A stretch of 32,257 nt of DNA, from NCBI GenBank assembly GCA_018699415.1, contig JABIQM010000160.1:1-32257 (forward strand). Reading direction: 5' to 3'. The position numbers and the translations under genes are program-made. Position 1 is the stretch's first letter. Each line of letters begins with the position of its first letter. Shown here piece after piece: positions 13,395-30,820 of the stretch. This stretch comes from Acidimicrobiaceae bacterium. Lineage in GTDB: Bacteria; Actinomycetota; Acidimicrobiia; Acidimicrobiales; Aldehydirespiratoraceae. The notes below the pieces were generated by a model. The model was not told where the DNA came from. It ran no database searches and saw only the letters and a list, made by a program, of their open reading frames with translations.

Positions 13395-13698
13395 CTACCA
13401 GTTGGGATGTGGACCAAGCCGATCATCAACTCCGGCTCAGGCAGTACCGCGACCGGAACGATCTTGGGAGTGCAAGATGATCACCTTGCGGGCGTAAGAC
13501 TCATCAATCACTACACCGACTCGACCTGTCTCGCTCCCCCTCCCGATCCTTGTTGGAACAACGATCACAGGCGCGATGGCGTGTACCTCGGCAGTAGCCA
13601 CGGTGTTTCGGACATCCTCGAAGCCCGGATCGGTGACGACCAGTGCCGTGCTGTCGACACGCTTCGGCCAACTCGTTGATGCAACCTTCGCCGATCCG
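13395..13698 (-). pseudogene. Remnant of an iron-containing alcohol dehydrogenase
   Basis: Three short pieces resembling consecutive parts of group III (iron-dependent) alcohol dehydrogenases follow each other on the minus strand in shifted frames. The first, RIGEGCINELAEACRQHG (13698-13645), matches the N-terminal nucleotide-fold entry. After a +1 shift, ALVVTDPGFEDV and then VIVVPTRIGRGSETGRV and VVIDESYARKVIILH match the VTDpg and PTtaGtGSE regions. After a second shift, KIVPVAVLPEPELMIGL matches the segment before the iron-ligand helices. The expected stretch of roughly 70-90 residues containing the GGGS motif is missing between the first blocks. The start codon and the iron-binding histidines are also absent. 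From 13394 to 13246 I recognise nothing. The relic sits in the leftward operon between VOC and deacylase, so a working oxidoreductase was probably once part of it. Confidence 0.65.
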
Positions 13699-14391
13699 TC
13701 AGTCTTCGACCAGCACAGGCGGGATGTTTTCGCTGAAGCGAGCGGTGAAGATCTCGTCGGGAATAGCGATCGTCTTCTTGTAGTGCTCGACCGGCATCCC
13801 GCGGGGATACGGCTTGCTCTCGTCGAACGCTGGCTGCGCCACCGGGCTTTCACCGGGCTGGAACTCCGTTGGACTCCGGTAGCGATTCAGCTCTTCGGCC
13901 GAAATCCCGGCGAGGTCGACAACCTCTGGGTCTATCCAGGCCCGGCCGTCAATGGGCTGGGTAGATGTGGCGATCTCCAGGCTCATGTCCTCGGGGCCAG
14001 CGAAATAGATCGAGTGGCAAATACCGTGATCAAGAGGACCGAACACCGTGACACCCCTCGACCGGATCCGGTCTCGCATGGTCAAAAGGTCGTCGAGTGT
14101 GTCCACGTTGAACGCCACGTGCTGCATCGCTCCGCCGGCACAGGGGGTGCCGGCGCTACCCGCATGCGTCACACCAATCGTTCGGTCGATTCCGGCAATA
14201 TCTGGCGTTTCCACGAAAGCGACGTAACAACTGTCGTTCATCTTCACAAACCCGTGCCATGCACCCTCGACACCATGCATCCAGTAGAGGGCTACCAACT
14301 CGCATCCCAATACGTCGTTGAAGAACGCGATCTGTGCCTTGATGTCCTTGGTGGCGATCGCCAGATGATGGATTCCGTTGTTACCCGACAT
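13699..14391 (-). CDS. VOC-family protein (glyoxalase / extradiol dioxygenase fold)
   Basis: This 230-residue protein has a vicinal oxygen chelate domain in residues 1-145. Metal ligands are His9 (GIHHLAIAT), His91 (MQHVAFNV) and Glu139 (MSLEIAT), followed by an 85-residue tail of unknown role. VOC enzymes include glyoxalases, epimerases, extradiol dioxygenases and dehalogenation/resistance proteins; the sequence does not discriminate. ATG at 14391 is preferred since the first beta strand begins immediately after it. TAGGGT lies seven bases upstream and could be the -10 box of a leaderless transcript. It is the first gene of the leftward run and is divergent from the TauD-type gene across 84 bp. 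Confidence 0.85.
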   Translation of the reverse strand: MSGNNGIHHLAIATKDIKAQIAFFNDVLGCELVALYWMHGVEGAWHGFVKMNDSCYVAFVETPDIAGIDRTIGVTHAGSAGTPCAGGAMQHVAFNVDTLDDLLTMRDRIRSRGVTVFGPLDHGICHSIYFAGPEDMSLEIATSTQPIDGRAWIDPEVVDLAGISAEELNRYRSPTEFQPGESPVAQPAFDESKPYPRGMPVEHYKKTIAIPDEIFTARFSENIPPVLVED

Positions 14392-14475
14392 CTCAAGGAC
14401 CCTAGTGACCACCAGTCCTCTGAGGAAGCTGGTCGTGGGACCATCGGCTGCGTCTACGCTCGGACCATCTCTGAC

Positions 14476-15381
14476 ATGGTGATCACGCCAGTCTCGCCAG
14501 TCTTTGGCGCCGATGTGTCCGGGATCGATCTCGACGGACCGCTCAGCGACTCGACGTTCGCCGCAATCCACCACGCATTCCTTCGCTATGGCGTGCTCTT
14601 CTTCCGCAACCAACAGGTCATACCAGAGGCGACGCAGGTGGCCCTCGCCCGTCGCTTTGGACCGCTCCACACACATCCAGCCGCACCGACCACCGATGCC
14701 GACGCCGCAGTCTTTGTGATCCATACCCATCGAGACTCCACCGTGGCCAACGGCAACGGCTGGCACACCGATGTCTCGTGCGACGAAGAGCCCCCCATGG
14801 CCACGATGCTTCATATCCACACCCTTCCCGAGGGCGGAGGAGGCGACACGCTGTTTGCCAGTATGGAAGCCGCCTATCAAGCATTGCCCGGCGAATTGAG
14901 GGAGAGACTCCGGGGGTTGAGCGCCCTCCACGAGTCAGAACACGTCTATCGAGGTCGCTATGCAGACCGTGGTGTCGACGATCGGGAGACGACGTACCCC
15001 ATAGCCGAGCATCCTGTGGTTCGTACCCATCCGGAGACCGGCCGTCTGAGTATCTATGTCAACCGCTCATTCACCACTCGCATCGTGGGGATGGACCTGA
15101 CCGAGAGCGATGAATTGCTGCGGTGGCTGTTTCGCCATGTGGAACGTCCCGAGTTCCAAGTTCGTCTCCGCTGGGCCAAGAACGATCTTGCGCTCTGGGA
15201 TAACCGATGTGTCCAGCACTTCGCCATATGGGACTACTGGCCCAACGAACGGAAAGGTAACCGGGTGACGATCCTGGGAGACCGACCGTTCCTCGACCCG
15301 GATTCAGTCGAGCCACCGGTATCCAATCTCCGGCTGTCCGGAGGGAGCCTGGCCCCCAAAGCCCGAGATATAGATTCATAA
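14476..15381 (+). CDS. TauD/TfdA-family Fe(II)/2-oxoglutarate dioxygenase
   Basis: This 301-residue protein has the TauD/TfdA layout. It begins with VITPVSPVFGADVSGIDL, and the iron triad is His97-x-Asp99 (GWHTDVS) and His248 (CVQHFA). Arg263 (NRVTILGDRPF) lies 15 residues after the distal histidine, as in taurine dioxygenase. Family members hydroxylate sulfonates, phenoxyacetates and other carboxylates to trigger C-S, C-O or C-N cleavage. The frame stays open far upstream of 14476, but that part is antisense to the VOC gene and lacks family similarity, so the ATG at 14476 is used. Its stop lies six bases before the marR -35 box, so it is likely transcribed separately from the kynurenine operon, though read-through is possible. 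Confidence 0.92.
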   Translation: MVITPVSPVFGADVSGIDLDGPLSDSTFAAIHHAFLRYGVLFFRNQQVIPEATQVALARRFGPLHTHPAAPTTDADAAVFVIHTHRDSTVANGNGWHTDVSCDEEPPMATMLHIHTLPEGGGGDTLFASMEAAYQALPGELRERLRGLSALHESEHVYRGRYADRGVDDRETTYPIAEHPVVRTHPETGRLSIYVNRSFTTRIVGMDLTESDELLRWLFRHVERPEFQVRLRWAKNDLALWDNRCVQHFAIWDYWPNERKGNRVTILGDRPFLDPDSVEPPVSNLRLSGGSLAPKARDIDS

Positions 15382-15422: not shown

Positions 15423-15887
15423 ATGAAGCCAGCGGAAACGAGCTTTCTCGCCAACTATCTGCCCTACCTTTTGCGCCAGGCCGACCAAACTCTGTCAGCA
15501 CCCTTCTACGCCGTACTCACCAAGCACGAGGTAGCTCGTTCTGAATGGCGGGTCCTTGCCGTCCTTGAGGAGTTCGAAGAACTCAGCGTGATCGAGTTAG
15601 CCGACGCCTCGCTCAGCCCTCAGCCGACCGTCACCCATGCCGTGCGCCGACTCGAAGGGCGCGGACTTGTCACCCGGACCCAAGGCACCGAGGACAGACG
15701 CCAGCGAATTGTCTCGATCACGGCCGCCGGGATCAAACTCGCCAGGTTGCTGGCGCGTGAAGCGAAGATGCTGGAGGCCGATGCTCTCGCGAACGCAGGC
15801 GACCTCTCTGCACTTGTTGCACAACTTGAAATTCTGAGCACGTGCGTAGCCACCCGTATGCCCCAAAGAGGAAACGTCAGTGCCTGA
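15423..15887 (+). CDS. MarR-family transcriptional regulator of the kynurenine operon
   Basis: This 154-residue winged-helix protein has a dimerisation helix at the N-terminus (about 5-35), the helix-turn-helix at about 55-80 (LSVIELADASLSPQPTVTHAVRRLEGRG is the core region) and the wing with the MarR-typical DRRQRIVSIT (91-100). A final helix closes the dimer interface. It is the first gene of the operon and its end overlaps the kynureninase start by eight bases. The promoter just upstream carries a palindrome between -35 and -10, so it likely represses itself and the tryptophan-degradation genes and is released by a pathway metabolite. That ligand role is inference; Lrp-type KynR is the better-known regulator of such genes in other bacteria. 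Confidence 0.88.
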   Translation: MKPAETSFLANYLPYLLRQADQTLSAPFYAVLTKHEVARSEWRVLAVLEEFEELSVIELADASLSPQPTVTHAVRRLEGRGLVTRTQGTEDRRQRIVSITAAGIKLARLLAREAKMLEADALANAGDLSALVAQLEILSTCVATRMPQRGNVSA

Positions 15888-17127
15888 CCACAGACCCACC
15901 GCGGCCCAACTTGATGCCGCAGACCCATTGGCCGCGTTACGAGACGAATTTGAACTTCCTGACGGGATCTATCTCGTCGGCAACTCGCTCGGTGCGTTGC
16001 CCAAGGCAGCACGGGACTACGTAAACACGGAGTTCGATCGCTGGAGCACGTTGGGAGTTGAGGGTCACTTCACCGGCGACCTCGCCTGGAAGGATTACCA
16101 CGAGTTACTGACCAGCCAGTTCGCTGGGCTTACCGGAGCACTACCTGACGAGGTCGTAGCGATGAACTCGTTGACCGTCAACCTGCATCTGCTGATGGTC
16201 AGCTTCTACCAGCCGACGGCAGCACGCCACAAGATTCTGATCGAGGGTCACGCCTTTCCTTCAGACCATTTCGCCGTCGAATCGCAAATCCGTCAACGCG
16301 GATTCGATCCAAACGACTCCCTGATCCTTCTTGAGCCCCGCAGCGGCGAACAAACGCTTCGGCTCGAGGACACCCTGGCCGCTATCGCCGAGCACGGCGA
16401 CGAACTGGCGCTGGTCTTTCTCCCGGGAGTTCAGTACTACACGGGACAGGTCCTGGCGATGCACGAGATCACCACAGCCGGCCACGCTGTCGGCGCCATC
16501 GTTGGATTCGACCTCGCCCATGCAGTCGGCAACCTTGAGCTCAGCCTTCACGACTGGGATGTCGATTTCGCCGCCTGGTGCACGTACAAGTATCTCAACA
16601 GCGGCCCCGGTGGCGTCGCGGGGGCATTCGTGCATCAGCGTCATGTGACCGACCAGCGCCTACCCAAGCTTCACGGCTGGTGGGGAACGAACAAGACGAG
16701 CCGTTTCGAGATGGCAACCGAATTTGACGCGATCCCGACCGTGGAATCGTGGCAGCTCTCAAATGCACCAGTCCTGCTCATGGCATCACTGCGCGCCTCG
16801 CTCGACATCTTTGACAGGGCCGGAGGAATGGGTCCGCTTCGCCGAAAGACCGAGCAGCAAATTGCGTTCTTTGACCAGCGGCTCAAGGAGTCTCTCGGAG
16901 ACCGCGTTGAGAACATCACGCCCAAGGCACTTGCCGAACGCGGCTGCCAGTTTGCCTTGCGCGTCACCAACGACGATGGCCGGCGCGTCTTCGAGGAATT
17001 GGAGAATGCCCGAGTGCGTTGCGATTGGCGCCACCCCGACGTGATTCGGGTCGCGGCAGTGCCTCTCTACAACTCATTCGACGACATCGATAGGTTCGTT
17101 GACATTCTTGACGGGATTGTGCGATGA
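15880..17127 (+). CDS. kynU: Kynureninase
   Basis: This 415-residue fold-type I PLP enzyme cleaves kynurenine or 3-hydroxykynurenine to (3-hydroxy)anthranilate and alanine. Kynureninase hallmarks are visible: YLVGNSLGALP near the N-terminus, WSTLGVEGHF, MNSLTVNLHLLM, Asp211 in GFDLAHAVGN, and the Schiff-base Lys237 in AAWCTYKYLNSGPGG. Length is normal for the family. The start is GTG at 15880, eight bases downstream of AGAGG (15867-15871) and inside the 3' end of marR. Its stop overlaps the next gene as ATGA. With KMO and TDO following, the in vivo substrate is probably 3-hydroxykynurenine. Confidence 0.96.
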   Translation: MPDHRPTAAQLDAADPLAALRDEFELPDGIYLVGNSLGALPKAARDYVNTEFDRWSTLGVEGHFTGDLAWKDYHELLTSQFAGLTGALPDEVVAMNSLTVNLHLLMVSFYQPTAARHKILIEGHAFPSDHFAVESQIRQRGFDPNDSLILLEPRSGEQTLRLEDTLAAIAEHGDELALVFLPGVQYYTGQVLAMHEITTAGHAVGAIVGFDLAHAVGNLELSLHDWDVDFAAWCTYKYLNSGPGGVAGAFVHQRHVTDQRLPKLHGWWGTNKTSRFEMATEFDAIPTVESWQLSNAPVLLMASLRASLDIFDRAGGMGPLRRKTEQQIAFFDQRLKESLGDRVENITPKALAERGCQFALRVTNDDGRRVFEELENARVRCDWRHPDVIRVAAVPLYNSFDDIDRFVDILDGIVR

Positions 17128-18473
17128 AGGGTCCGATCGCCATTGCCGGCGCAGGGCCAGCGGGATCGCTTCTCGCCATCTATCTCGCTCGCCAAGGCTA
17201 CGGCGTCACGGTCTATGAGAGCCGTCCCGACCTGCGCCGAGCCGAGATCGGAGCTGGCCGATCAATCAATCTCGCGCTCGCCACACGGGGCATCGTCCCC
17301 CTTGTCGATGTCGGCGTGATCGACAAGGTGAATGAGATCACCATCCCAATGCGAGGCCGGATGGTGCATGCCGTTGGTGACCCGACGCCCGCACTTCAGC
17401 CGTACGGCAGCCACGAGCACGAAGTCATCCATTCGGTCTCTCGGAGGGACCTCAACGCGATCCTGCTCGACGCCGCAGAGGCCACCGGACGCGTGACCAT
17501 CGAGTTCGAGCGTCGACTCGACGCTATCGACTTCGACCAATCACTGCTGCACTTCCACGACGGCACGCGTGAGCCGTTCGGCGTGGTGTTCGGTGCCGAT
17601 GGCGCCAACTCTCCAATTCGGGAATCGATCATCGCCAAAGGGGCCTGCACGTTTGACGACGAAGCGCTCGGGCACCAGTACAAGGAACTCACCGTACCTG
17701 CGGCCGGCAATGGGACGTACCTTCTCGATCCCTTGGCGCTTCACATCTGGCCAAGGGGCGAATTCATGCTCATTGCGCTCGCCAACCCCGGCGGCGACTT
17801 TACGGTCACGCTATTTGCTCCTACACAGACCTTTGACACTCTGAACTCGGTGGACGAGATCCAGTCATTCTTTGCCGAGCACTTCTTGGAGTTCGCAGCA
17901 CTCGTCCCCGACCTAGAAACGCAGTTCGTGGAAAACCCCACGGGCAAGCTGGCAACGGTGCGGGTGAGCGGCTGGAGCTACCAAGACCGGGCGGTACTGA
18001 TCGGCGATGCCGCCCACGGGATCGTGCCATTCCATGGCCAAGGCATGAACGCGGCAATGGAGTCGGTGCGAGAGCTTGACCGCCACCTCCGTGCATCACC
18101 CGACGACCTCGTCACCGCCTTCAATGCCTACGAGACCGAACGAAAGCCCAATACCGATGCCATCGCCGAGATGGCGCTCAACAACTACGTCGAGATGCGG
18201 GCCGGCGTCGTCGACCCGGCGTATCTCGCCAAACGCACACTGGCCCTCGAGCTCCAGCGGCGCCACCCCTCCCATCTGAGCCCCCGCTACAACATGGTGA
18301 TGTTCTCCACCATGCCCTACGCCGAGGCGCAAGACCGTGCCACCCAACAAGGTGAGATCATCGATGCGGCCCTCGCCGATCCGTCACTTGACGTCGATGC
18401 CCTCATCAGCGCACTTCCGCTACTTCCCAAAAACGACCCGCTGGCCGACCCAAGAGCCCTTTCCACATCATGA
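17124..18473 (+). CDS. kmo: Kynurenine 3-monooxygenase
   Basis: This 449-residue flavin-dependent aromatic hydroxylase converts L-kynurenine to 3-hydroxykynurenine with NADPH and oxygen. It shows the FAD dinucleotide-binding GAGPAG (9-14), the GADGANS fingerprint (157-163) and the second FAD motif GDAAHGIVPFHGQGMN (294-309). The KMO-typical RSINLALATRG follows the first fold. The C-terminus lacks a clear membrane anchor, as expected for bacterial enzymes. It overlaps kynU and the TDO gene by four bases each (ATGA), so the three enzymes are translationally coupled. Confidence 0.95.
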   Translation: MKGPIAIAGAGPAGSLLAIYLARQGYGVTVYESRPDLRRAEIGAGRSINLALATRGIVPLVDVGVIDKVNEITIPMRGRMVHAVGDPTPALQPYGSHEHEVIHSVSRRDLNAILLDAAEATGRVTIEFERRLDAIDFDQSLLHFHDGTREPFGVVFGADGANSPIRESIIAKGACTFDDEALGHQYKELTVPAAGNGTYLLDPLALHIWPRGEFMLIALANPGGDFTVTLFAPTQTFDTLNSVDEIQSFFAEHFLEFAALVPDLETQFVENPTGKLATVRVSGWSYQDRAVLIGDAAHGIVPFHGQGMNAAMESVRELDRHLRASPDDLVTAFNAYETERKPNTDAIAEMALNNYVEMRAGVVDPAYLAKRTLALELQRRHPSHLSPRYNMVMFSTMPYAEAQDRATQQGEIIDAALADPSLDVDALISALPLLPKNDPLADPRALSTS

Positions 18474-19282
18474 GCCTTCCTTTCGAAAACGACGACGCGT
18501 TCACCTACGGCTCGTATCTGATGGTGCCGGAGCTGCTCAGCTTGCAGCGATGTGTGTCCCATGACCCCGAAACGGGAAAGCCCGAGCATGACGAGACGCT
18601 GTTCATCATCATTCATCAGGTGTACGAACTGTGGTTCAAACAGATACTGCACGAGGTCGACTTCATCATCGCGCAGCTCAACAATGATCAGATCAGTGCC
18701 GCCCAGAATCATCTCAAACGAGTGCTCAAAATCCTGAAGACCTTGGTCGGCCAGCTCGATGTCCTGGAAACCATGACGCCCGCCGAATTCGCCAGCTTTC
18801 GATCGTTTCTTGCCAATGCCAGCGGCTTCCAGTCCGCACAGTTTCGGGAACTCGAATACGCGCTCGGCATCAAGGACCGCATCGAACTCGACTGGTTCAG
18901 CGGCATTGAGGGGGAACGGCTCACCCAGCGCCACGCGTCCGCCACCCTTTGGGATGCGTTCGTCGGCGTCATGCACCGTCAGGGTGCGCCAGTGCCCGCC
19001 CACGTACTGAACCGAGATGTGCGTGAGACAGTTATCGAGAACGCCGAACTGCAAGCAGTGATCATCGACCGTTATAGCGACGAGGGCTTCGCCGGGCTCT
19101 GCGAGACACTTACCGATCTCGACGAAGGCCTTCAGGAGTGGCGGTATCGCCATGTGATGATGGTCAGGCGCACCATCGGTACAAAGATGGGCACAGGCGG
19201 ATCTGACGGAGCTGCGTATCTGGCAACCACACTCTTCCGGCCGGCATTCCCCGATCTGTGGGCTATCCGGACGGCCTTCTGA
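18470..19282 (+). CDS. kynA: Tryptophan 2,3-dioxygenase
   Basis: This 270-residue heme dioxygenase opens the indole ring of L-tryptophan to N-formylkynurenine. The TDO signatures are clear: FTYGSYL near the N-terminus, His49 in IIHQVYELWFKQ on the distal side, Arg126 in SAQFRELEYALG for substrate carboxylate binding, the proximal heme ligand His228 in WRYRHVMMVRRTIG, and the GTGGSDGAAYL substrate loop (241-251). Length matches bacterial homologues. ATG at 18470 overlaps the kmo stop. The gene catalyses the first step of the pathway although it is the fourth gene of the operon. Confidence 0.97.
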   Translation: MSLPFENDDAFTYGSYLMVPELLSLQRCVSHDPETGKPEHDETLFIIIHQVYELWFKQILHEVDFIIAQLNNDQISAAQNHLKRVLKILKTLVGQLDVLETMTPAEFASFRSFLANASGFQSAQFRELEYALGIKDRIELDWFSGIEGERLTQRHASATLWDAFVGVMHRQGAPVPAHVLNRDVRETVIENAELQAVIIDRYSDEGFAGLCETLTDLDEGLQEWRYRHVMMVRRTIGTKMGTGGSDGAAYLATTLFRPAFPDLWAIRTAF

Positions 19283-19299
19283 TACGTCGAGGAATCACA

Positions 19300-19965
19300 A
19301 TGACAAGCCCCGCAACTTCCCTCGTGGACTCGGCTCAGATTCGAGCCTTGGTCGTCGAAGCGGTCGAAGCATCCGCCGAACTGATGGCATCGTCCCCCGT
19401 AGCGGACCAGTGGAACGAGGCCTCCGCCCTTGAGGGCATGACCGTCGGGGCCCTGGCCGCACATCTCGTCCGTGCCGCTGGTTCCACCATTGCCTACCTC
19501 GACCGAACTCCAGTGGACGCCCTACCAAGCACTGAGCTACTCACCCCAACCACCTATTTCCACGCAGCGATCGGGTCTCCAATTCATGAACGAATCAAGC
19601 ACGTCTCTGCGCAAGAGTCATCTCTGGGCCACAGCGCACTCACCGAGAAGTGCACCCAACTCGCCGCCGATCTGAAGACCAGGCTGGCCACAGAGCCCGA
19701 CGACCGACTCGTCGCCGCTCTCGGTGATCGATTTCTCACCCTCGACGATTTCTGCCGCACGCGCATGATCGAAGTGCTCGTCCACCTCGATGACCTCGCA
19801 GTCAGCACGAGTCAGAGGCGCCCCGTGACAGACCCAACGGGTATCGCGATCGTCATTGACATCTCCGTAGGAATCGCTCGACACGCGCATGGCGACTGGA
19901 ACGTGCTCTATGCACTCGCCCGCACTGAACGATCAGCCATCGAGCCCGTCTTTCCCGCCTTCTAA
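19300..19965 (+). CDS. MDMPI-family (mycothiol-dependent maleylpyruvate isomerase-like, DinB-fold) protein
   Basis: This 221-residue protein resembles the N-terminal four-helix domain of mycothiol-dependent maleylpyruvate isomerases. The metal-binding residues can be placed as His55 (ALAAHLVRA), Glu158 and His162 (MIEVLVHLDDLA), with the E-x3-H spacing of that family. Such proteins use the actinobacterial thiol mycothiol in isomerisation or thiol transfer. ATG at 19300 is chosen over an in-frame GTG at 19258 because CGAGGA (19288-19293) lies just upstream and the GTG falls inside the TDO gene. It sits 17 bases after the TDO stop and is likely the last gene of the operon. Its job in tryptophan degradation is unknown. 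Confidence 0.82.
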   Translation: MTSPATSLVDSAQIRALVVEAVEASAELMASSPVADQWNEASALEGMTVGALAAHLVRAAGSTIAYLDRTPVDALPSTELLTPTTYFHAAIGSPIHERIKHVSAQESSLGHSALTEKCTQLAADLKTRLATEPDDRLVAALGDRFLTLDDFCRTRMIEVLVHLDDLAVSTSQRRPVTDPTGIAIVIDISVGIARHAHGDWNVLYALARTERSAIEPVFPAF

Positions 19966-21063: not shown

Positions 21064-21129
21064 GATCCTCCGATTGGTGACCGAGTGTGCTTTCTACATC
21101 GTACGGGCGATCGTCGCTGGCCGGAAGCC

Positions 21130-22149
21130 ATGACGCTACGGTTTCCTATGCTCGCTAATTCGTCGATTACCTCGACCATCCCCTATGACCAGCCAGGAGT
21201 CCTCCACGGACACCTGCATCTCCCCCATAGTCGCGACGACTCGGCCTACGGGGCGATCATGATTCCGATCTCCGTCATCAATAATGGGCAGGGTCCAACC
21301 GTGCTGCTCACCGGCGGAAACCACGGCGACGAGTACTACGGCCCCCTGGCGCTGACGCGCTTTCTCGCCACAGTTGATCCCGCCACGATCATCGGTCGAG
21401 TGATCGTCGTGCCCTACATGAACTACCCGGCGTTCTCGGCGGGGGCCCGCACCTCGCCCATCGACGCTGGCAATCTCAATCGCGTCTTCCCCGGCTCGCC
21501 GACCGGCACCGTCACCCAGCGGATCGCCGACTATATGACGCGCTATCTGCTGCCCATGGCTGATGCTGTCCTAGATATCCACGACGGGGGCCGGACGCTC
21601 GAATTCATGCCAATGGCCTCAACTCATGTTCTCGACAACAAGGCCGACGAAGCCCGAAACCGCCAGGCAGCGGCCGCCTTCGGTGCACCGTTCGTCACCT
21701 GCTTGGTCGAGCTCGATCAGCTCGGAATGTGGGATTGCACAGTCGAGGAATCCGGTACGGGGTTCGTCACGACCGAACTCGGCGGGGGCGGCACGACTCG
21801 GCCCGACCTGATGCGAATCGCCAGCCAGGGAGTCGTGAACGTTTTGCGCCATTGGGGCGCTATGACGGGCACCGTCGCACCAGCAGCCTCAGCCGTGCTC
21901 CACATCCCCGACGACAACGCTTACGTCATCAGCACCGGCGAGGGGCTCATTGAGTGGCTCGTAAATCTCGGCGACCCGATCGCCGCAGGGCAACCGATCG
22001 CACAGGTCTACAGCACCGTGCACCTCGGGAACGCGCCCGAGGAAATCCTCGCCACCATGGACGGAGTGCTCGCAATGCGCCACTACCCGGGCACCGTGAA
22101 GATGGGTGATGCGATCGCCATGCAGGCAACCCTCACACCAGCGCCCTGA
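21130..22149 (+). CDS. doeB: N-acetyl-L-2,4-diaminobutyrate deacetylase (ectoine degradation), DoeB/EutE-like
   Basis: This 339-residue zinc carboxypeptidase-fold deacylase belongs to the succinylglutamate desuccinylase/aspartoacylase group. Zinc ligands are His65 and Glu68 in TGGNHGDEY and His151 in LDIHDGG; the catalytic Glu216 lies in TTELGGGGT. LHLPHSRDDSAYG, TSPIDAGNLNRVFPG and the C-terminal beta-barrel agree with DoeB/EutE, which removes the acetyl group from N-alpha-acetyl-diaminobutyrate made by DoeA. ATG at 21130 is chosen; the ATG at 21148 is also possible and gives a family-like N-terminus. The gene is divergent from ilvE and tail to tail with doeA (12 bp between stops), whereas doeA and doeB usually lie in the same direction. 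Confidence 0.9.
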   Translation: MTLRFPMLANSSITSTIPYDQPGVLHGHLHLPHSRDDSAYGAIMIPISVINNGQGPTVLLTGGNHGDEYYGPLALTRFLATVDPATIIGRVIVVPYMNYPAFSAGARTSPIDAGNLNRVFPGSPTGTVTQRIADYMTRYLLPMADAVLDIHDGGRTLEFMPMASTHVLDNKADEARNRQAAAAFGAPFVTCLVELDQLGMWDCTVEESGTGFVTTELGGGGTTRPDLMRIASQGVVNVLRHWGAMTGTVAPAASAVLHIPDDNAYVISTGEGLIEWLVNLGDPIAAGQPIAQVYSTVHLGNAPEEILATMDGVLAMRHYPGTVKMGDAIAMQATLTPAP

Positions 22150-22161
22150 TTCCTCACTCGG

Positions 22162-23346
22162 TTAGCTCTTCACGAACAACTTGCGGGGCACATCTGCCAG
22201 CAGCTCGTACCCGGTCTCGGTCACGAGCACCGATTCGGTGATCTCGAGTCCCCAGTCGTCCTGCCAAAGCGCAGGCATGAAGTGGAAGGTCATGCCCGGC
22301 TTCATCTCGGTGAGCTCACCCGGCCGGATGCTGATGTTTCTCTCGCCCCAGTCAGGCGGATAGCTCAGCCCAATGCCGTATCCGGCGCGGCTTTCCTTGT
22401 CATAGCCGTAGGACCGGAGATCGGCGATAAAGGCTCGATGCATGTCGTCGAACGTGTTTCCCGGAGTAACCACGCGGAGTCCGGCCTCGATTGAGGACAA
22501 CAACGCCTCTTCCGCAGCCAGCCACGAAGCTGGAGCAGGACCAAGGTGGATCGTGCGCGACAGCGGCACGTGATAGCGGCGGTACACGCCGGCAACCTCG
22601 AAGAACGACCCTTCACCGGTCACGAGTTCCCGGTCGTCCCATGTGAGATGCGCCGCGCTTGCGTCCTCACCCGTCGGCATCATTGGCACGATGGCCGGAT
22701 AGTCGCCTCCGTGTTCAGGCGTCCCTCTAATTCCGGTGTGATAGATCTCAGCAACGAGATCGTTCTTGCGGATCCCTGGCTCCATCAGCTCAAGAATGCG
22801 CTGGTGCATTTGAGTCACGATCGTGCCCGCGATCCGCATGTAATCAATCTCTCGGGGCGACTTCACCAGGCGAAGCCAGTTCACGAGGCTGGTGGCATCC
22901 ACAATCGTGGCGTTGGGTACGTGCTCAACCAGGCGGGCGTGAGCTCGCGCTGAGTAGTAGTAGTTATCGAACTCAACGCCAATCCGTCCCGTTGCCCATC
23001 CACGGTCGCTCAGTGTCGTGGTTGCGAGATAGTCCATGGCGTGGCGCTCGGTGGACATGACGTAGTGATCGGGATAGCCGATGATGTCATCATCGCTGAG
23101 ATAGGTCGTTCGTTTGGCGCCGTTCGCGTCCATGCCACGCCCAAACCAGACCGGGTCACCGGTACCGCCGACAATCACACACTGTGGGGTATAAAACGAC
23201 CATCCGTCGTAGCCGGTGAGCCACGACATGTTCGATGGGTCGTGCACGATGAGGGTGTCGAGGCTTTGCTCGGCCATAGCAGCGCGTGTCGCGGCCAGCC
23301 GCGTCGCGTATTCATCGCGACCGAAATGAATGATGGCGTCGCTCAT
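22162..23346 (-). CDS. doeA: Ectoine hydrolase, DoeA/EutD-like (metal-free M24 fold)
   Basis: This 394-residue pita-bread-fold protein shows the DoeA hallmarks DPSNMSWLTGYDGWSFYTPQ (36-55), WFGRGMDANGAKRTTYLSDD and IIGYPDHYVMSTERHAMDY. DoeA opens the ectoine ring to N-acetyl-diaminobutyrate. The M24 metal ligands are lost as in creatinase: the second aspartate position is Pro261, the histidine of GHG is Tyr323 (GYGIGLSYPPDWGERN), while Glu250 (FFEVAG) and Glu371 (ITESVLVT) remain. Glu250 is the position I recall as the covalent-intermediate glutamate of EutD. GGAGG precedes the ATG, which overlaps the stop of the upstream PLP gene as ATGA. It converges with doeB. Confidence 0.92.
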   Translation of the reverse strand: MSDAIIHFGRDEYATRLAATRAAMAEQSLDTLIVHDPSNMSWLTGYDGWSFYTPQCVIVGGTGDPVWFGRGMDANGAKRTTYLSDDDIIGYPDHYVMSTERHAMDYLATTTLSDRGWATGRIGVEFDNYYYSARAHARLVEHVPNATIVDATSLVNWLRLVKSPREIDYMRIAGTIVTQMHQRILELMEPGIRKNDLVAEIYHTGIRGTPEHGGDYPAIVPMMPTGEDASAAHLTWDDRELVTGEGSFFEVAGVYRRYHVPLSRTIHLGPAPASWLAAEEALLSSIEAGLRVVTPGNTFDDMHRAFIADLRSYGYDKESRAGYGIGLSYPPDWGERNISIRPGELTEMKPGMTFHFMPALWQDDWGLEITESVLVTETGYELLADVPRKLFVKS

Positions 23347-24527
23347 ACCACCTCCAATGCGTGCGCCAGATCCGCCAAAAGATCATCGACGTGCTCGATG
23401 CCTGCCGAGTAGCGAACCAGGCCCTCTGGGATCCCAAGGGCCGCACGCTCTTGTGGCGTGCACTCGACATGGCTCGTAGTGGCCGGCGGGCCCACCGTGG
23501 TCTCTACTGCTCCGAGATTTGCTGCCCGATGGGCGAGTTTGAGGTGAGGGAGGAACCCCTTCACCGCCTCCAGGCCTCCATCGATAGCAAAACTCAACAT
23601 TGAGCCGAAGCCGGTCATCTGGGAGGCCGCAAGCTCATGTTGGGGGTGCGAAGCGAGGCCTGGATAGTTGACTCTGGTCACCTTGGGGTGAGCTTCGAGG
23701 AATGTGGCGATGGCCATCGCGTTTTCGGCTTGGCGCTCTAAGCGAATTTGCAGGGTCTTCATTCCTCGCAACAACAAATAGGCGGCCATCGGGTCGAGCG
23801 TGGCTCCGTTGATCTCGCGGTACTGGTACACCTTCTTCACCAGATCGGAGCGGCCAACCACGACACCGCCGAGTGCATCAGCATGGCCACCGAGGAACTT
23901 GGTGGCACTGTGCACCACAAGGTCGGCACCGAGTGCGAGCGGAAGCTGATTCATCGGTGTGGCGAACGTATTGTCCACGACAACCGTGGCATTGACCCCA
24001 TGACCAGCAGCAATGAGTCTCCGGAGGTCGAGAACCTTCAGCGTCGGGTTGGTGGGGGTCTCCAGATAGAGCAAGTCACAGCCCTCAGAAACTGCCCTCT
24101 CGATCGCTGGAGTGTCGGTCGTGTCGATGAGATCGCACGTAATTCCAAACGACGGAAGGAAATCCGTGAACAGCAGACTCGTACCGCCATACGTGTCCTT
24201 CACGGACACAACTCGGTTACCGGGTCGTAGTAGGGCGTGCAGCGTGTTCGAGATCGCCGCCATGCCGGTTGATGCGGAGGTGGCAGCCTCACCGCCCTCG
24301 AGCAGCCGAATCTTCTCCTCGAATACGGCAACTGTCGGATTGGTGTTGCGCCCATAGATGTGGCCCTCAGCTACGCCTGTCGCCACGTCGTACCATTCTT
24401 CGAAATCCGGGTACCCGAAAGCCACGCTGTGCACCACCGGTACCTGGGTTGCCCGGTCGAGGAGATAGCGTTCCTCCCCTCCCCATACGGTGACCGAGGC
24501 GGCATCAAGTTCACTGAGGTCTGACAC
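23343..24527 (-). CDS. Cys/Met metabolism PLP-dependent enzyme (cystathionine gamma-synthase / methionine gamma-lyase family)
   Basis: This 394-residue fold-type I enzyme carries the family marks YGR (58-60) of the phosphate-binding loop from the partner subunit, STGMAAI (86-92), Tyr113 in KDTYGGT, Asp185 in VVVDNTFATP and the Schiff-base Lys210 in SATKFLGGHADALGG. It acts in trans-sulfuration, O-acetylhomoserine sulfhydrylation or gamma-elimination; the sequence alone does not decide. GTG at 24527 is preferred because AAGGA (24533-24537) sits five bases upstream; an in-frame GTG at 24542 has no such site. Its stop overlaps doeA (ATGA), so both are one transcript. A gamma-elimination or gamma-replacement on a C4 amino acid would be chemically close to diaminobutyrate, which is speculation. 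Confidence 0.9.
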   Translation of the reverse strand: MSDLSELDAASVTVWGGEERYLLDRATQVPVVHSVAFGYPDFEEWYDVATGVAEGHIYGRNTNPTVAVFEEKIRLLEGGEAATSASTGMAAISNTLHALLRPGNRVVSVKDTYGGTSLLFTDFLPSFGITCDLIDTTDTPAIERAVSEGCDLLYLETPTNPTLKVLDLRRLIAAGHGVNATVVVDNTFATPMNQLPLALGADLVVHSATKFLGGHADALGGVVVGRSDLVKKVYQYREINGATLDPMAAYLLLRGMKTLQIRLERQAENAMAIATFLEAHPKVTRVNYPGLASHPQHELAASQMTGFGSMLSFAIDGGLEAVKGFLPHLKLAHRAANLGAVETTVGPPATTSHVECTPQERAALGIPEGLVRYSAGIEHVDDLLADLAHALEVV

Positions 24528-24758
24528 AGGGTTCCTTCTCACACATGGAAATGCCGCAAAGCTAGTCCCTCCCGCCGAGGTTTGGTCGAAACGCCAACCC
24601 GAGCCCAGGTCTGTTCCGAGCGAGCAAGCGGGTCTGCCGGGCCGCTCATCAGTCCGCTGGCTAGAGGCGACACCGCCTCCTCACCCGGCGCCGCTGGGCT
24701 GAGTTACCTACTGACCGGTAACAAAGTCTAGACTGGGAAGGAAAACGGAGATGACGCT
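24528..24758. promoter_or_regulatory. Divergent intergenic region with perfect inverted repeat and candidate -10 for the second P450
   Basis: These 231 bases carry no gene. A perfect inverted repeat GTTACC (24703-24708) / GGTAAC (24717-24722) with an 8-base centre lies just upstream of TAGACT (24729-24734), a TANNNT -10 candidate on the plus strand. GGAG at 24747-24750 is the P450 ribosome binding site. The repeat looks like a TetR-type operator overlapping the -35 region. The left part must hold the promoter of the Cys/Met enzyme-doeA operon, but I see no clear boxes for it. Confidence 0.45.
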
Positions 24759-26117: not shown

Positions 26118-27290
26118 TTACGTAACCATGTGGACTTCACGCGGGTAGGTGGTCAGACACTCGACACCGTTGGAGGTGACGAGCGTCGTCTCGCTCATCT
26201 CCATACCCCAATCGTCCAGCCACATTCCCAACATCACGTGAATGGTCATGTTTTCCTGCAGCACCGTGGTTTCACCCGGTCGCAGACTGACCGTGTGTTC
26301 TCCCCAGTCGGGCCCATACCCGACACCGATGCCATAGCCGATGCGGCTCTCCTTGGTGAGTCCGTATTGGTCAAGCACGTCCTGCCAGGCGCGATGAACA
26401 TCGTGGGCGATCGCACCAGGTTTCATCGCCTCGAGGACCGCCTCAAGGCCTTCGACGACTGCGTTGGCAGTGTCGAACAGGCGCTGGGGACCCGCGCCCA
26501 ACTGCACGGTTCGAGCGAGCCCTGCGTTATAGCGCTTACGTGTGCCGCCGAACTCGAGAGCGACGGTCTGGCCCACCACAAATTTCTCGTCGGTCCACAT
26601 CGGATGAGCCGTCGTTGCTGCCTCACCCGCAAGGATCAAGGGTGACAGCGCAGTCAGATCTCCACCGAAGTCTTCATTGCCGCCGACCTGCTTCGCTACG
26701 ACTGCCGCCATGAGGTCGCATTGACGCACGCCTGGAGCGATCGTCTCATAGGCCACTGTCATCGCTCCCTCGACGAGGCGCGCGGCCTGTCGCATCACCT
26801 CGACCTCGGCGTCGCTCTTGATGGTTCGGCACCAGTTCACGAGCAGATCGGCATCCTGCCAGCGAGCGCTCGGAAGCGCTGCCTGGAGCCGAGCAAACGC
26901 CTTCGGGGTGAAGAAGTACGTGTCGCTCTCGTAGCCGATGACATGACCGTCCAAACCCAACTCCGCCATCGACGCACCAATGAAGTCCATCGGGTGAATT
27001 CCCTCGCGTTGAACACAGTCCTCGGGGTAGGGACGCACCTGATCATCGGTCAGGTAGGTGGTGAACCTGGCGGCACCACCATCCATTTTGCGGCCCATCC
27101 AGATGGGCTCAGCGTCGTGTTGAACCAGCACGATCTGTGGCGTGTAGAACGACCAGGCGTCGTAGCCCGTGAGCCAGTTATGACTGTTCGGGTCAGCGAT
27201 AACTAAAGCATCGAGCCCGCGAAGATCCATCTCTGTTCGAACCTTGGCAAGCCGAGTCTCGTACTCGGACTTGGGGAATGCGGGAGGCAT
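26118..27290 (-). CDS. DoeA-like metal-free M24-fold hydrolase (second paralogue)
   Basis: This 390-residue protein is a clear relative of the DoeA protein in this window: DPNSHNWLTGYDAWSFYTPQ (33-52), WMGRKMDGGAARFTTYLTDDQ and IGYGIGVGYGPDWGEHTVSLRPGE. Metal ligands are likewise lost (Gly257 and Tyr319 where M24 peptidases have Asp and His), while Glu246 (VALEFGG) and Glu367 (MSETTLVT) persist. It is probably a metal-independent hydrolase of a cyclic amidine, guanidine or amide in the manner of ectoine hydrolase and creatinase. It differs in many first-shell positions, so its substrate may be something other than ectoine, such as hydroxyectoine or another osmolyte. ATG at 27290 overlaps the upstream PhyH stop (TGATG). 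It is the last gene of a four-gene operon. Confidence 0.88.
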   Translation of the reverse strand: MPPAFPKSEYETRLAKVRTEMDLRGLDALVIADPNSHNWLTGYDAWSFYTPQIVLVQHDAEPIWMGRKMDGGAARFTTYLTDDQVRPYPEDCVQREGIHPMDFIGASMAELGLDGHVIGYESDTYFFTPKAFARLQAALPSARWQDADLLVNWCRTIKSDAEVEVMRQAARLVEGAMTVAYETIAPGVRQCDLMAAVVAKQVGGNEDFGGDLTALSPLILAGEAATTAHPMWTDEKFVVGQTVALEFGGTRKRYNAGLARTVQLGAGPQRLFDTANAVVEGLEAVLEAMKPGAIAHDVHRAWQDVLDQYGLTKESRIGYGIGVGYGPDWGEHTVSLRPGETTVLQENMTIHVMLGMWLDDWGMEMSETTLVTSNGVECLTTYPREVHMVT

Positions 27291-28204
27291 CAGGGGTTCT
27301 CCGGTGTCGGTTCGTTATTGGTGGACAGGGTGTCTTGGTGGCGAAAGATCGAGGTGTACCCATGGGTCCAGTCCGGCGGGAGAATCATGGTCATGGCGTC
27401 ATGGTGGGCAATCCCTGGTTCGACACCCCGCACAATCTGGCCATAGTGCGAACTGTGGTAAGGCGGCGCCGTATAGGGGATGGCATCAGCCGCGCTATAG
27501 GTGATGACGAGTGCGGGCCTGTTCGTGTCGCTGTGGTTCGGAGCCGAGTAGTGCAACGTGAGTGCATGGTGCACGCTGACCGAGCCGGCAGGGCCCGTGA
27601 TCTGCACAGCTGAATCGATCATGGCGGCATCGAACTTTTCGATCCCGATTGCACCGACCCACACGCCATCGCTGTCGTAGTGGGAGTACATGGGGCCTTT
27701 GTGGCTGCCCGGAACCACAGTGAGCGGGCCTCGTTCTGAGGTGACCTCATCGAGAGCAACGACGAACTGGACCGTTCCCGCACTGGTGTGGGGGTAGAAG
27801 GCGAGGTCCTGGTGCCAGTCGACGGCCGCCCCTCCCCCAGACCACTTGAGGTTGGCGAACGCGTCTCGGAAACGAACGTTGGGCCCAAGCACGTCCGCCG
27901 CTATGTCCACCAGGACTGACTGGCGACAGAAGTCCCAGAAGACGGCATCGACATCATCGATCAGGGCCGCCCGCCGAAGCCGCGGCGAGTCACGTCGATG
28001 ACCAGCGTCAAGATCCACCAAGTGAGTCGACTCAGACATCGACCGGCTGGCTTCGATGATCGTGCCCAGCGCCGCAGTGAGCCGTTCGAGTTCGGCGTCG
28101 CCGAGCATGCCGGGAAACGCGAGATAACCCAGCTCATCCCATTGGCGGCGGCCGCTGTCACCGATGACGCGGGGTGAGGTGGAGCAGACGTCTTGCCAGC
28201 GCAT
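27290..28204 (-). CDS. PhyH-family Fe(II)/2-oxoglutarate dioxygenase
   Basis: This 304-residue protein shows His131-x-Asp133 (DWHQDLAFYP), a GPLTVVPGSHKGPMYSHY core, His218 (LTLHYSAPN) and Arg229 (RPALVITYSA). It is closer to the PhyH protein at 701-1582 (same HQD-F-x-P-H, GPxxVVPGxHxG and HxSAPN wording) than to its immediate neighbour. The start lies three bases after the stop of the preceding PhyH gene, with GGAGA about 12 bases upstream. Its stop overlaps the DoeA-like start by one base. Adjacent to a pita-bread hydrolase as at the left end of the window, it likely prepares a substrate for, or oxidises the product of, that hydrolase. Confidence 0.88.
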   Translation of the reverse strand: MRWQDVCSTSPRVIGDSGRRQWDELGYLAFPGMLGDAELERLTAALGTIIEASRSMSESTHLVDLDAGHRRDSPRLRRAALIDDVDAVFWDFCRQSVLVDIAADVLGPNVRFRDAFANLKWSGGGAAVDWHQDLAFYPHTSAGTVQFVVALDEVTSERGPLTVVPGSHKGPMYSHYDSDGVWVGAIGIEKFDAAMIDSAVQITGPAGSVSVHHALTLHYSAPNHSDTNRPALVITYSAADAIPYTAPPYHSSHYGQIVRGVEPGIAHHDAMTMILPPDWTHGYTSIFRHQDTLSTNNEPTPENP

Positions 28205-28207
28205 CTT

Positions 28208-29086
28208 CTACTCGTGTCTCCCCATCGCCATTTCGGGGCCACGGACAAGGGGGAACTTGTCGCAGATGATCGGTTCACCGATCTGAAGCGATGATTCGCA
28301 ATACGTGTCGAGCGCAGGCTTGCCGTTGTAGACAACGTCGTCCCCGACCCAGTTGACGGAAAACGCGGCACGTCGGCTGGGTAGTCGGTTCCCGGGAGCG
28401 CAGTGCAGGGTGTACGACCACCACACGAGCATGTCACCGGCCTTGAGCGGCGCGACCAGAACCTCGGAGCCATCGGTTTCGATCTGCGGCAACGGCAGCT
28501 CCGTCCTCGCGTGGCGATAGTCGGCCTCGGGGTCGTCGAAGTCGACTGCCCTATACAGCGTCTTGGCGTAATGAGAGCCGGCCAGGAACCGGAGCGCCGA
28601 CTCAACCGGGATGTCGTCGAGCGCAACCCAGCTATTGACCACTTTCACCCCATCGATCGGGTAGTACGAATGATCCTGGTGCCACGGCGTCGACGCGGTA
28701 TCGCTCCGGGCTTCCTTGATCAGGAGAAAATCATAGAACAGCACGAGTTCTGTGCTGTTGAGCAAGGACCAGACCAGGTCGGGCAGACGCGAGTCGAAAA
28801 TAAAGGATCGAAAACCCTGGACAGAGTTCCACGCACCGGAACTAAACGAGAACGATCCTTCGTCACCGTCGCGATGAACAACATCCACGTCCGTGCTCGC
28901 TCCGCCAACCGCATCAGCAATGCCAGTTTCAATCGTGGACAACCAGGAATCATCAAATGCTCTACGGAGGCATACAACTCCGTCACCGTTCAATGCCTTC
29001 GCGGCGTCAGACGGCACCATGTCGGAGGAATCAAGAGTGAATGAGCAGACTTGTCCCAACACGGGTTTCTGCAAGGCAGGGGGCAC
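28208..29086 (-). CDS. PhyH-family Fe(II)/2-oxoglutarate dioxygenase
   Basis: This 292-residue protein carries DGVVCLRRAF near the N-terminus, His136-x-Asp138 (WHQDHSYYP), His228 (YTLHCAPGN) and Arg239 (RRAAFSVNWVGDD). It resembles the PhyH protein at 6249-7091. The start is uncertain. GTG at 29086 gives operon-like spacing to the upstream stop (23 bases) with GAGG about 14 bases before it. ATG at 29020 gives an N-terminal length closer to relatives but no visible ribosome binding site. It is the second gene of the operon and is followed after three bases by another PhyH gene. Two different dioxygenases in one operon suggest two successive oxidations. Confidence 0.86.
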   Translation of the reverse strand: MPPALQKPVLGQVCSFTLDSSDMVPSDAAKALNGDGVVCLRRAFDDSWLSTIETGIADAVGGASTDVDVVHRDGDEGSFSFSSGAWNSVQGFRSFIFDSRLPDLVWSLLNSTELVLFYDFLLIKEARSDTASTPWHQDHSYYPIDGVKVVNSWVALDDIPVESALRFLAGSHYAKTLYRAVDFDDPEADYRHARTELPLPQIETDGSEVLVAPLKAGDMLVWWSYTLHCAPGNRLPSRRAAFSVNWVGDDVVYNGKPALDTYCESSLQIGEPIICDKFPLVRGPEMAMGRHE

Positions 29087-29109
29087 GCCCGGACTGTAGT
29101 CCTCGTTGG

Positions 29110-30129
29110 CTACTCGGCAAGCTCTTGCTGGTAGGCAAATATTGCCGGGGTGCCTCCGGTATGGACAACGACAATCGTGGCGGCAGTCTCGGTCGCACGT
29201 GCCACAGCGGCCGCCATTACTTTGCCGGTGTACACCGGATCCATCAGGAGAGACTCATATTTGGCTGCTAGCGATATCGCATCCCGCGTCCCGTTGCTGA
29301 GGAGGCCATATCCCGGAGCGAGGAAGGCATCGGTAAGCACGATGTCGTCCGCCGTTACCGGATTGTCGACTTCGAGCAGTTCGGCGATTTCGTGGACTCG
29401 AGTAAGGATTCGCTCCCGTTGTTGTAGCGCATCTCGACGCACACAAACGCCAGTGACAACGGCCGGGCAACCCAGCCATCGAAGACCGAAAAGCAAACCG
29501 GCGTGAGTGTGCCCGCTGCCCGATGCAACCACTACTTCGTCAAAGACAGGCGCCCCCGACTGCACCTGCTGCACGAGCTCCTCGGCCGCGACCACATAAC
29601 CGAGGGCGCCCAGAGGGGCATGCCCCGGGGCGAGATGAATGACATAGGGCGTGTGTCCATCGTTTCGCAGCTCCCCCGCAATTGCTTCGAGCTGTCGATC
29701 GGCTCCCGCTTCATCTTCACCGTCGGGGTACTCGTGGATGGTTGCACCCAGTAGGTGGTCGAGAAGGACGTTGCCTGACGTGGCATAGAGATCATCGTCA
29801 CGCTCCACGCGTCGCTCAAGCTGAACATGGCTCTGCATCCCGAACCGATTCCCCGCGGCGATCGCCGATCGAACAAAGTTGGATTGGACGGCTCCAGTGA
29901 TCAGCAACGCGTCCGCCTGGCGCGACCGCGCGTCGCCGAGATAAAATTCGAGCTGCCGGATCTTGTTGCCACCCATCGCTAGGCCAGTGCAGTCGTCTCG
30001 CTTCACGAGCATCTGCGCGCCGCCCACGTATCTCGTGAGATTGGCCATCGGCTCCAACGGTGTGGGCAGGTGAGCGAGTGCTACGCGCGGCAACTGCTCG
30101 AGTTTGGCTGGCAGTCTTGGCGGCGGCAT
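29110..30129 (-). CDS. ACC deaminase / D-cysteine desulfhydrase family PLP enzyme
   Basis: This 339-residue fold-type II PLP enzyme shows LVKRDDCTGLAMGGNKIRQLEF with Schiff-base Lys56 in the GGNK motif, GAVQSNFVRS (79-88) for the substrate carboxylate and cofactor, ASGSGHTHAGLLFG for phosphate binding and HTGGTPAIFAY at the end. Members deaminate 1-aminocyclopropane-1-carboxylate or eliminate from D-cysteine, 3-chloro-D-alanine or related beta-substituted amino acids. The usual QSNH/QSNQ is QSNF here, which could alter specificity. AAGGA lies eight bases before the ATG. It is the first gene of the four-gene operon with two PhyH enzymes and a DoeA-like hydrolase, so its substrate is probably the amino acid released by them. 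Confidence 0.87.
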   Translation of the reverse strand: MPPPRLPAKLEQLPRVALAHLPTPLEPMANLTRYVGGAQMLVKRDDCTGLAMGGNKIRQLEFYLGDARSRQADALLITGAVQSNFVRSAIAAGNRFGMQSHVQLERRVERDDDLYATSGNVLLDHLLGATIHEYPDGEDEAGADRQLEAIAGELRNDGHTPYVIHLAPGHAPLGALGYVVAAEELVQQVQSGAPVFDEVVVASGSGHTHAGLLFGLRWLGCPAVVTGVCVRRDALQQRERILTRVHEIAELLEVDNPVTADDIVLTDAFLAPGYGLLSNGTRDAISLAAKYESLLMDPVYTGKVMAAAVARATETAATIVVVHTGGTPAIFAYQQELAE

Positions 30130-30289: not shown

Positions 30290-30820
30290 ATGAATGTCCG
30301 CTGGTCGCACTGTGTCCTCAAGGTGCGAGATCTTGATGCCATGGTGACGTTCTATTGTGACGCGCTTGGTTTCGTGGTGGCCGATCGCGGTTCGATCGGG
30401 CCCGACCAAGACCTCGCCTTCCTGAGTGGCAACTCCAGCGACCACCACCAACTTGGCCTACTCGAAGGACGCAGCAACGACGACACCACCAGCCTTGATC
30501 ACAATGCGTTTCGAGTCGACTCGGTCGAGGATGTGCAGGGCATGGTCGAGTGGGTCAACGCCGACGACCGAATTGGTGACGGGTTTCCCGTCACCCATGG
30601 CAACGCGGTGTCGGTGTATTTCAAGGACCCAGAGGGCAACGGCATCGAGATCTTCTGCGATACACCATGGCACGTGCCCCAGCCCCAGCTACAAGGATGG
30701 GATCCATCGAAAAGCGCTGAGGAGGTGCTTGCCTGCGTCGAGGCGCAATTTGCGAATGAGCCGGGCTTCGCCCCGATGGCGCAGTACCGGTTCACTCAAG
30801 CCAAAGCGTTCGGCGAATAG
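30290..30820 (+). CDS. VOC-family protein (catechol 2,3-dioxygenase-like / glyoxalase fold)
   Basis: This 176-residue protein has two beta-alpha-beta-beta-beta modules. Metal ligands are visible as His7 (RWSHCVLKVRD), His71 (SLDHNAFRV) and Glu120 (GNGIEIFCDTPWH), the facial triad of extradiol dioxygenases and related VOC enzymes. A tail of about 45 residues with no known motif follows the second module. Single-domain proteins of this type are often annotated as biphenyl-2,3-diol dioxygenases, but fosfomycin-resistance and glyoxalase-type functions are equally possible. It is divergent from the four-gene operon and followed after 58 bases by the haloalkane dehalogenase gene. Confidence 0.85.
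   Translation: MNVRWSHCVLKVRDLDAMVTFYCDALGFVVADRGSIGPDQDLAFLSGNSSDHHQLGLLEGRSNDDTTSLDHNAFRVDSVEDVQGMVEWVNADDRIGDGFPVTHGNAVSVYFKDPEGNGIEIFCDTPWHVPQPQLQGWDPSKSAEEVLACVEAQFANEPGFAPMAQYRFTQAKAFGE

Follow-up and report, generated by a model that had tools for sequence, protein, structure and literature searches.

What does a second, divergent relative of ectoine hydrolase do in an operon with two putative dioxygenases, on a stretch of DNA that also carries the canonical enzyme, DoeA? The question is raised by four genes on the minus strand of contig JABIQM010000160.1 from an Acidimicrobiaceae bacterium, the 32,257 bp stretch analysed here being referred to as the window. HYD2 (26118-27290, 390 aa, Creatinase_N and Peptidase_M24 domains) overlaps by 1 base with PhyHB (27290-28204, 304 aa, PhyH domain), which is separated by 3 bases from PhyHA (28208-29086, 292 aa, PhyH domain), and this by 23 bases from ACCd (29110-30129, 339 aa, PALP domain). 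The first-pass annotation had described four nearly contiguous genes of these families and this stands, since gene order, gaps, and overlap are identical in another genome of the same genus (G003; loci L019 and L032), with protein identities of 87-95%. All four operon genes are real and under purifying selection, the ratios of non-synonymous to synonymous substitution against G003 being 0.09, 0.17, 0.21, and 0.12 (range 0.09-0.21). We see about an even chance that these genes form an oxidative side-branch within catabolism of the ectoine/5-hydroxyectoine type, for which we infer the substrate, the order of the steps, and the products.

HYD2 is predicted from its sequence to be a metal-free ring hydrolase of the DoeA family that belongs to a clade of its own and has its covalent-catalysis residues intact. 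It is far closer to DoeA (343 bits) than to creatinase (41 bits), and has the same fold and length as the DoeA/EutD enzymes (6twj, 6twk, 6yo9; TIGR02993). The catalytic Glu/His/Arg/Tyr set is shared, all of the family-invariant residues being retained (equivalents of E255, H238, H361, R262, Y263, and E374 in H. elongata DoeA). E255, which is reportedly the covalent residue of DoeA, corresponds to E246 in HYD2. As in DoeA, 4 of the 5 ligands that bind metal in the genome's metal-dependent M24 proteins are replaced; a third M24 gene in the window (1582-2745) has all 5. HYD2 differs from DoeA/EutD in its identity (approximately 41-46%), in its score of 430.7 bits, below the TIGR02993 cut-off of 613 that the canonical DoeA of the window (22162-23346, minus strand, 616 bits) exceeds, and at 38 positions that are fixed differently in its clade. 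Some of these flank the catalytic glutamate, H. elongata E255 (F253A, F254L, A257G, H264N, and P266G), and others are more distant in the sequence (Y221L, P229L, T240M, R342H, and F362V). With the catalytic residues kept, the metal site lost, and these substitutions in place, HYD2 most likely uses the same chemistry as DoeA, with an amidine carbon attacked in an altered pocket.

In the maximum-likelihood tree, 28 HYD2-type sequences (support 100/99) are apart from all 30 sequences of the DoeA clade (100/100), which includes H. elongata, S. meliloti, Leisingera, and the DoeA of the window. The lost ligands and the separate clades agree with the earlier description of the hydrolase as metal-free and related to DoeA, yet distinct from the copy nearby. 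Inside the group of 28 is the HYD2 clade itself, which has 18 members from Acidimicrobiales and Gammaproteobacteria. Exact peptide patterns, which more distant HYD2 members will have escaped, were used to scan 84,980 species genomes and identified 25 HYD2-related loci, including two plain DoeA. Two Acidimicrobiales genomes have the highest identity to HYD2 (89-95%), followed at 67-78% by further Acidimicrobiales and by Gammaproteobacteria (Granulosicoccaceae, Leucothrix, Cocleimonas, Thiotrichaceae, and a Bugula symbiont); SAR116 and Paracoccaceae are at 51-54%. Relatives on Rhizobiaceae plasmids are 53-54% identical. The related loci derive from marine metagenome-assembled genomes (MAGs). Among 396 genomes sampled from the phylum, no other HYD2 ortholog was found, and the matches of 41-47% identity belong, with two exceptions, to the DoeA clade. 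This patchy spread over two phyla suggests that HYD2 has moved by horizontal transfer.

The genes within 3.5 kb of HYD2 were compared at 24 loci. A PhyH gene of any kind is present at 17 and a deacylase (DoeB, ArgE, or M20) at 9. PhyHB is found at 11 of the loci, PhyHA at 6, PhyH1 at 5, and DoeB and ArgE-like genes at 4 each. The first-pass annotation had treated the four genes as one unit, and this does not hold: ACCd is present at 3 loci only, and CGL, a cystathionine gamma-synthase family gene that it had left out, is present at 11. The full quartet is seen in two genomes that share a genus; in a third, PhyHA is missing and the other three genes are present. Gene orders include CGL-PhyHB-HYD2 (L035 and L037), PhyHA-PhyHB-HYD2-(DoeB)-CGL (L034 and L054), PhyHA-CGL-PhyHB-HYD2-(DoeB) (L039), PhyH1-CGL-HYD2-PhyH (L046), and, in a gammaproteobacterium, PhyHB-HYD2-PhyHA (L041). 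The conserved core is HYD2 with PhyHB, and PhyHA and CGL are common extras. The coupling of the hydrolase to PhyH dioxygenases, as first proposed, recurs in unrelated genomes. Counting HYD2 pairs, there are 3 M24-PhyH pairs in each of two genomes (G000 and G500), against 0.26 and 0.21 expected; there is no enrichment in G488 or G493, and such pairing was dropped as a genome-wide rule. The window has a second pair on the minus strand, made up of PhyH1 (701-1687) and the M24 hydrolase with the intact metal site (1582-2745), and relatives of these, 52-54% identical, are beside an EutA-like gene in G500 (L142).

The first-pass annotation had suggested an N-methylated cyclic amide or amidine osmolyte as the substrate. 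No specific support was found for this, and the context indicates an ectoine/hydroxyectoine-type compound instead. In three genomes (G488, G493, and G508; L034, L039, and L054) a DoeB over its cut-off is beside HYD2, with no canonical DoeA or DoeA_2. An adjoining DoeB, seen in several genomes, is a further likeness to the DoeA/EutD systems, from which HYD2 is set apart by the PhyH oxygenase that often accompanies it. At L042, HYD2 follows 39 bases after an Atf gene that is 75% identical to the Atf of a Leisingera ectoine operon, and the two are divergent from DoeA-ArgE. HYD2 neighbours EutB (over cut-off), ArgE, EutA, and PhyH1 at L052, and at L139, in SAR116, a member of the PhyHB clade (support 95/97) lies within the series Atf-EutC-EutB-PhyHB-EutA-EutB. 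Among the 24 HYD2 genomes an over-cut-off EutB is present in just 3, all outside the Acidimicrobiales. Relatives of HYD2 and PhyHB in the alpha- and gammaproteobacteria are like the EutABCDE hydroxyectoine operons in being adjoined by EutA, EutB, Atf, or M20/DoeB, whereas the Acidimicrobiales loci have no EutABC, with PhyHB/PhyHA and CGL/ACCd instead. No EutABC and no Atf/Ssd route was found in the window, where the N-acetyl-diaminobutyrate deacetylase DoeB (21085-22149, plus strand, over the TIGR02994 cut-off) is 4 kb from HYD2.

PhyHA and PhyHB are predicted to be PhyH-family Fe(II)/2-oxoglutarate (2OG) dioxygenases, distinct from each other. The iron triad and the 2OG arginine are present in PhyHB (H131-x-D133, H218, and R229) and in PhyHA (H136-x-D138, H228, and R239). 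Profile and fold searches show PhyHB to resemble free amino-acid hydroxylases and EctD, which is also of the PhyH family and among its top matches. PhyHB was rejected as an EctD, having HQDLAFYPH in place of the EctD signature HSDFETWH, a separate branch, and a TIGR02408 score of 40.4 bits against a cut-off of 336.

CGL (23343-24542, minus strand, PRK08249) overlaps DoeA by 4 bases in the window. It scores 641 bits, over the NF006097 cut-off of 600, and the same cut-off is exceeded in 14 of the 18 Acidimicrobiales and gammaproteobacterial HYD2 genomes. The nearest plasmid relatives of CGL are found in a Klebsiella cluster, EutC-EutB-EhuABCD-MocR-DoeA-DoeB-CGL, and in a Priestia cluster, EutB-M24-EutC-CGL-M20. 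In both of these ectoine clusters the CGL-type enzyme occupies the place of Atf/Ssd (L119 and L125). It may act as a lyase of diaminobutyrate, so far unrecognised, or as a gamma-replacing enzyme.

The enzyme families and gene linkage read from these sequences put HYD2 repeatedly beside a putative 2OG dioxygenase (PhyHB or the related PhyH1), a deacylase, and a pyridoxal phosphate (PLP) enzyme (CGL, Atf, or EutB). In the proposed side-branch, PhyHB, and in some lineages also PhyHA, would oxidise the tetrahydropyrimidine ring, or a substituent on it, of ectoine, hydroxyectoine, or a substituted relative. Glu246 of HYD2 would attack the amidine carbon, opening the ring to give an N-acylated diamino acid, and the acyl group would then be removed by DoeB or an M20 enzyme. 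A PLP enzyme, which would be CGL and in this genus ACCd as well, would eliminate the gamma or beta substituent to yield a 2-oxo acid and ammonium, and this elimination would replace the Atf/Ssd route and EutABC. The DoeA of the window would serve plain ectoine. The activities of EutABC, which deal with the hydroxyl group of hydroxyectoine, have yet to be settled biochemically (PMC8739950), making an oxygenase-based replacement plausible. A narrower form of the proposal is tentative and well short of probable: that HYD2 hydrolyses an oxidised or substituted ectoine-type ring, neither ectoine nor 5-hydroxyectoine, that is made or unmasked by PhyHB/PhyHA, and that CGL acts on diaminobutyrate as a gamma-lyase, or else replaces the gamma substituent.

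Several observations count against an ectoine-type side-branch. No transporter or EnuR-type regulator is found beside HYD2 in the Acidimicrobiales; genes downstream of HYD2 at L044 were considered as transporter evidence and rejected, being trp/lgt genes. Of the 24 loci, 5 (L036, L038, L041, L043, and L050) have no ectoine-type neighbour within 3.5 kb, and at L049 the sole neighbour other than PhyH is a DUF1989 gene. The genomes with DoeB beside HYD2 are MAGs, and therefore the absence of DoeA from them is not certain. PhyHB lacks the EctD signature, which makes its target and the atom that it oxidises conjectural. PhyHB-family genes are present in every one of the 24 genomes with HYD2, and 14 genomes that lack HYD2 but have other DoeA-family hydrolases contain none, an association that is supportive rather than proof because the two sets differ in lineage and habitat. 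Divergence alone is likewise no proof of a new substrate, as a DoeA that shares just 30-31% identity with other DoeA enzymes is still functional in that pathway for ectoine (PMC7192451).

That functional DoeA would also suit the main rival explanation, which is rather unlikely, that HYD2 duplicates the ectoine/5-hydroxyectoine hydrolase activity of DoeA as an isofunctional paralogue with a different affinity or regulation, and that the PhyH genes merely share its transcript. The conserved catalytic residues, the three genomes with HYD2 and DoeB without DoeA, and the second homologues of eutD that are reported from putative ectoine clusters of Bacillota and Thermodesulfobacteriota (PMC13188858) are all consistent with it. 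However, HYD2 and DoeA are held together by 14 of the 18 Acidimicrobiales and gammaproteobacterial HYD2 genomes, the consistent partner is a PhyH oxygenase that is absent where only other DoeA-family hydrolases occur, and many of the HYD2 substitutions adjoin the catalytic glutamate.

Mycosporine-like amino acids, the vinylogous amidines of red algae and cyanobacteria, would be an alternative substrate, with PhyHA removing an N-alkyl group and HYD2 hydrolysing the imine. The case for this begins with the profile of PhyHA, which matches MysH at 115 bits among solved structures, the next best being 47, and with the origin of the related loci in marine MAGs. For MysH, hydroxylation of the C1 glycine, which adjoins an amidine-like nitrogen, has been proposed to yield palythines (PMC10510106), and the resemblance would agree with N-dealkylation of a substituted amidine, although this is only a lead. 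MysH is the nearest solved relative of PhyHA, but identity is low and mycosporine biosynthesis genes are not nearby. PhyHA is itself present at just 6 of the 24 loci, its predicted structure was set aside as unusable (pLDDT 33), and the DoeB, Atf, EutA, and EutB neighbours suit ectoine instead, making this explanation improbable.

It is no more probable that the operon degrades a guanidino compound or another nitrogen-rich osmolyte, with HYD2 acting like a creatinase. Arginase-family genes adjoin the cluster at L039 and L043, and DUF1989 is beside HYD2 relatives at L049 and L057 and within the cluster at L047, but such neighbours are rare and differ between lineages, and HYD2 is far closer to DoeA than to creatinase by the scores given above.

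ACCd is, by sequence, assigned to the fold-type-II PLP enzymes of the D-cysteine desulfhydrase/CuyA group, with no equivalog cut-off reached. Its best NCBIfam match is CuyA at 332 bits (NF052482, cut-off 450), it scores 207 bits with TIGR01274 for 1-aminocyclopropane-1-carboxylate (ACC) deaminase (cut-off 392), and it is below all of the desulfhydrase cut-offs. The diagnostic sites of ACC deaminase are presumably E295 and L322 of Pseudomonas ACCD, and here ACCd has DPVYTGK and HTGG where 1rqx has DPVYEGK and HLGG. ACCd has Thr/Thr at these sites, as in desulfhydrase, and ACC deamination was rejected because the Glu/Leu pair is absent; the original label 'ACC-deaminase-like' is correct for the fold family and fails at the diagnostic residues. 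Membership of the conserved core was also rejected, as ACCd is so seldom beside HYD2 and its nearest plasmid relatives are in unrelated contexts. ACCd is a lineage-specific addition to the operon. A PLP gene of the same length beside EhuABCD in Klebsiella was rejected as a relative, its L120 portion having no match to ACCd; directly adjoining EutC, that gene is read as EutB. The least probable explanation, that the operon handles a sulfonate or a sulfur amino acid with ACCd as cysteate sulfo-lyase or D-cysteine desulfhydrase, draws on the CuyA match and on a TauD-family gene at 13576-15381; the unreached cut-offs and the absence of ACCd from 21 of the 24 HYD2 loci count against it.

The operon is bounded at its 3' end by a P450 gene (24759-26078, plus strand) that is convergent with HYD2 and kept only in G003 and L033, and at its 5' end by a glyoxalase/VOC gene (30290-30820, plus strand) divergent from ACCd. 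A scan for promoters and terminators found nothing above the level of shuffled sequence. The window has another, closely related P450 gene (8666-9985, plus strand), which shares 73% identity with the ortholog in G003 of the P450 gene beside HYD2. An MBL-fold hydrolase (10020-10790, minus strand) has relatives, 40-44% identical, beside or near HYD2 at L040, L053, and L058. The TauD-family gene (plus strand, 601 aa) has its TauD domain in the C-terminal half only, the N-terminal 300 residues having no Pfam match. The genes at 15423-19965 (plus strand), an HpaR-like regulator, kynureninase, VioC-like FAD oxygenase, tryptophan 2,3-dioxygenase, and a mycothiol isomerase-type gene, are a tryptophan-to-anthranilate type cluster. 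Elsewhere, a plasmid of S. meliloti RRI128 (L118, 4980-7414) has an ectoine-type operon, MocR-EhuBACD-M24-M20, with M20 replacing DoeB.

Putative ectoine clusters in Actinomycetota, and with them the use of ectoine, have been proposed recently in a paper that names neither dioxygenases nor cystathionine-type enzymes (PMC13188858). A literature search found, among the papers covered, no HYD2-PhyH module and, as the first-pass annotation had supposed, no described pathway of this composition. The HYD2-PhyH system looks like a previously undescribed variant of ectoine-type catabolism, its substrate being proposed from context. Ectoines are major marine osmolytes and nutrients. The HYD2 clade, the 2OG dioxygenases, and CGL in place of the usual aminotransferase are candidates for an oxygen-dependent ectoine route that spans Acidimicrobiales, Granulosicoccaceae/Thiotrichaceae, and SAR116. 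If the ring is neither ectoine nor 5-hydroxyectoine and CGL is the lyase, this would be a new oxygen-dependent route of osmolyte catabolism in marine, often host-associated, bacteria.

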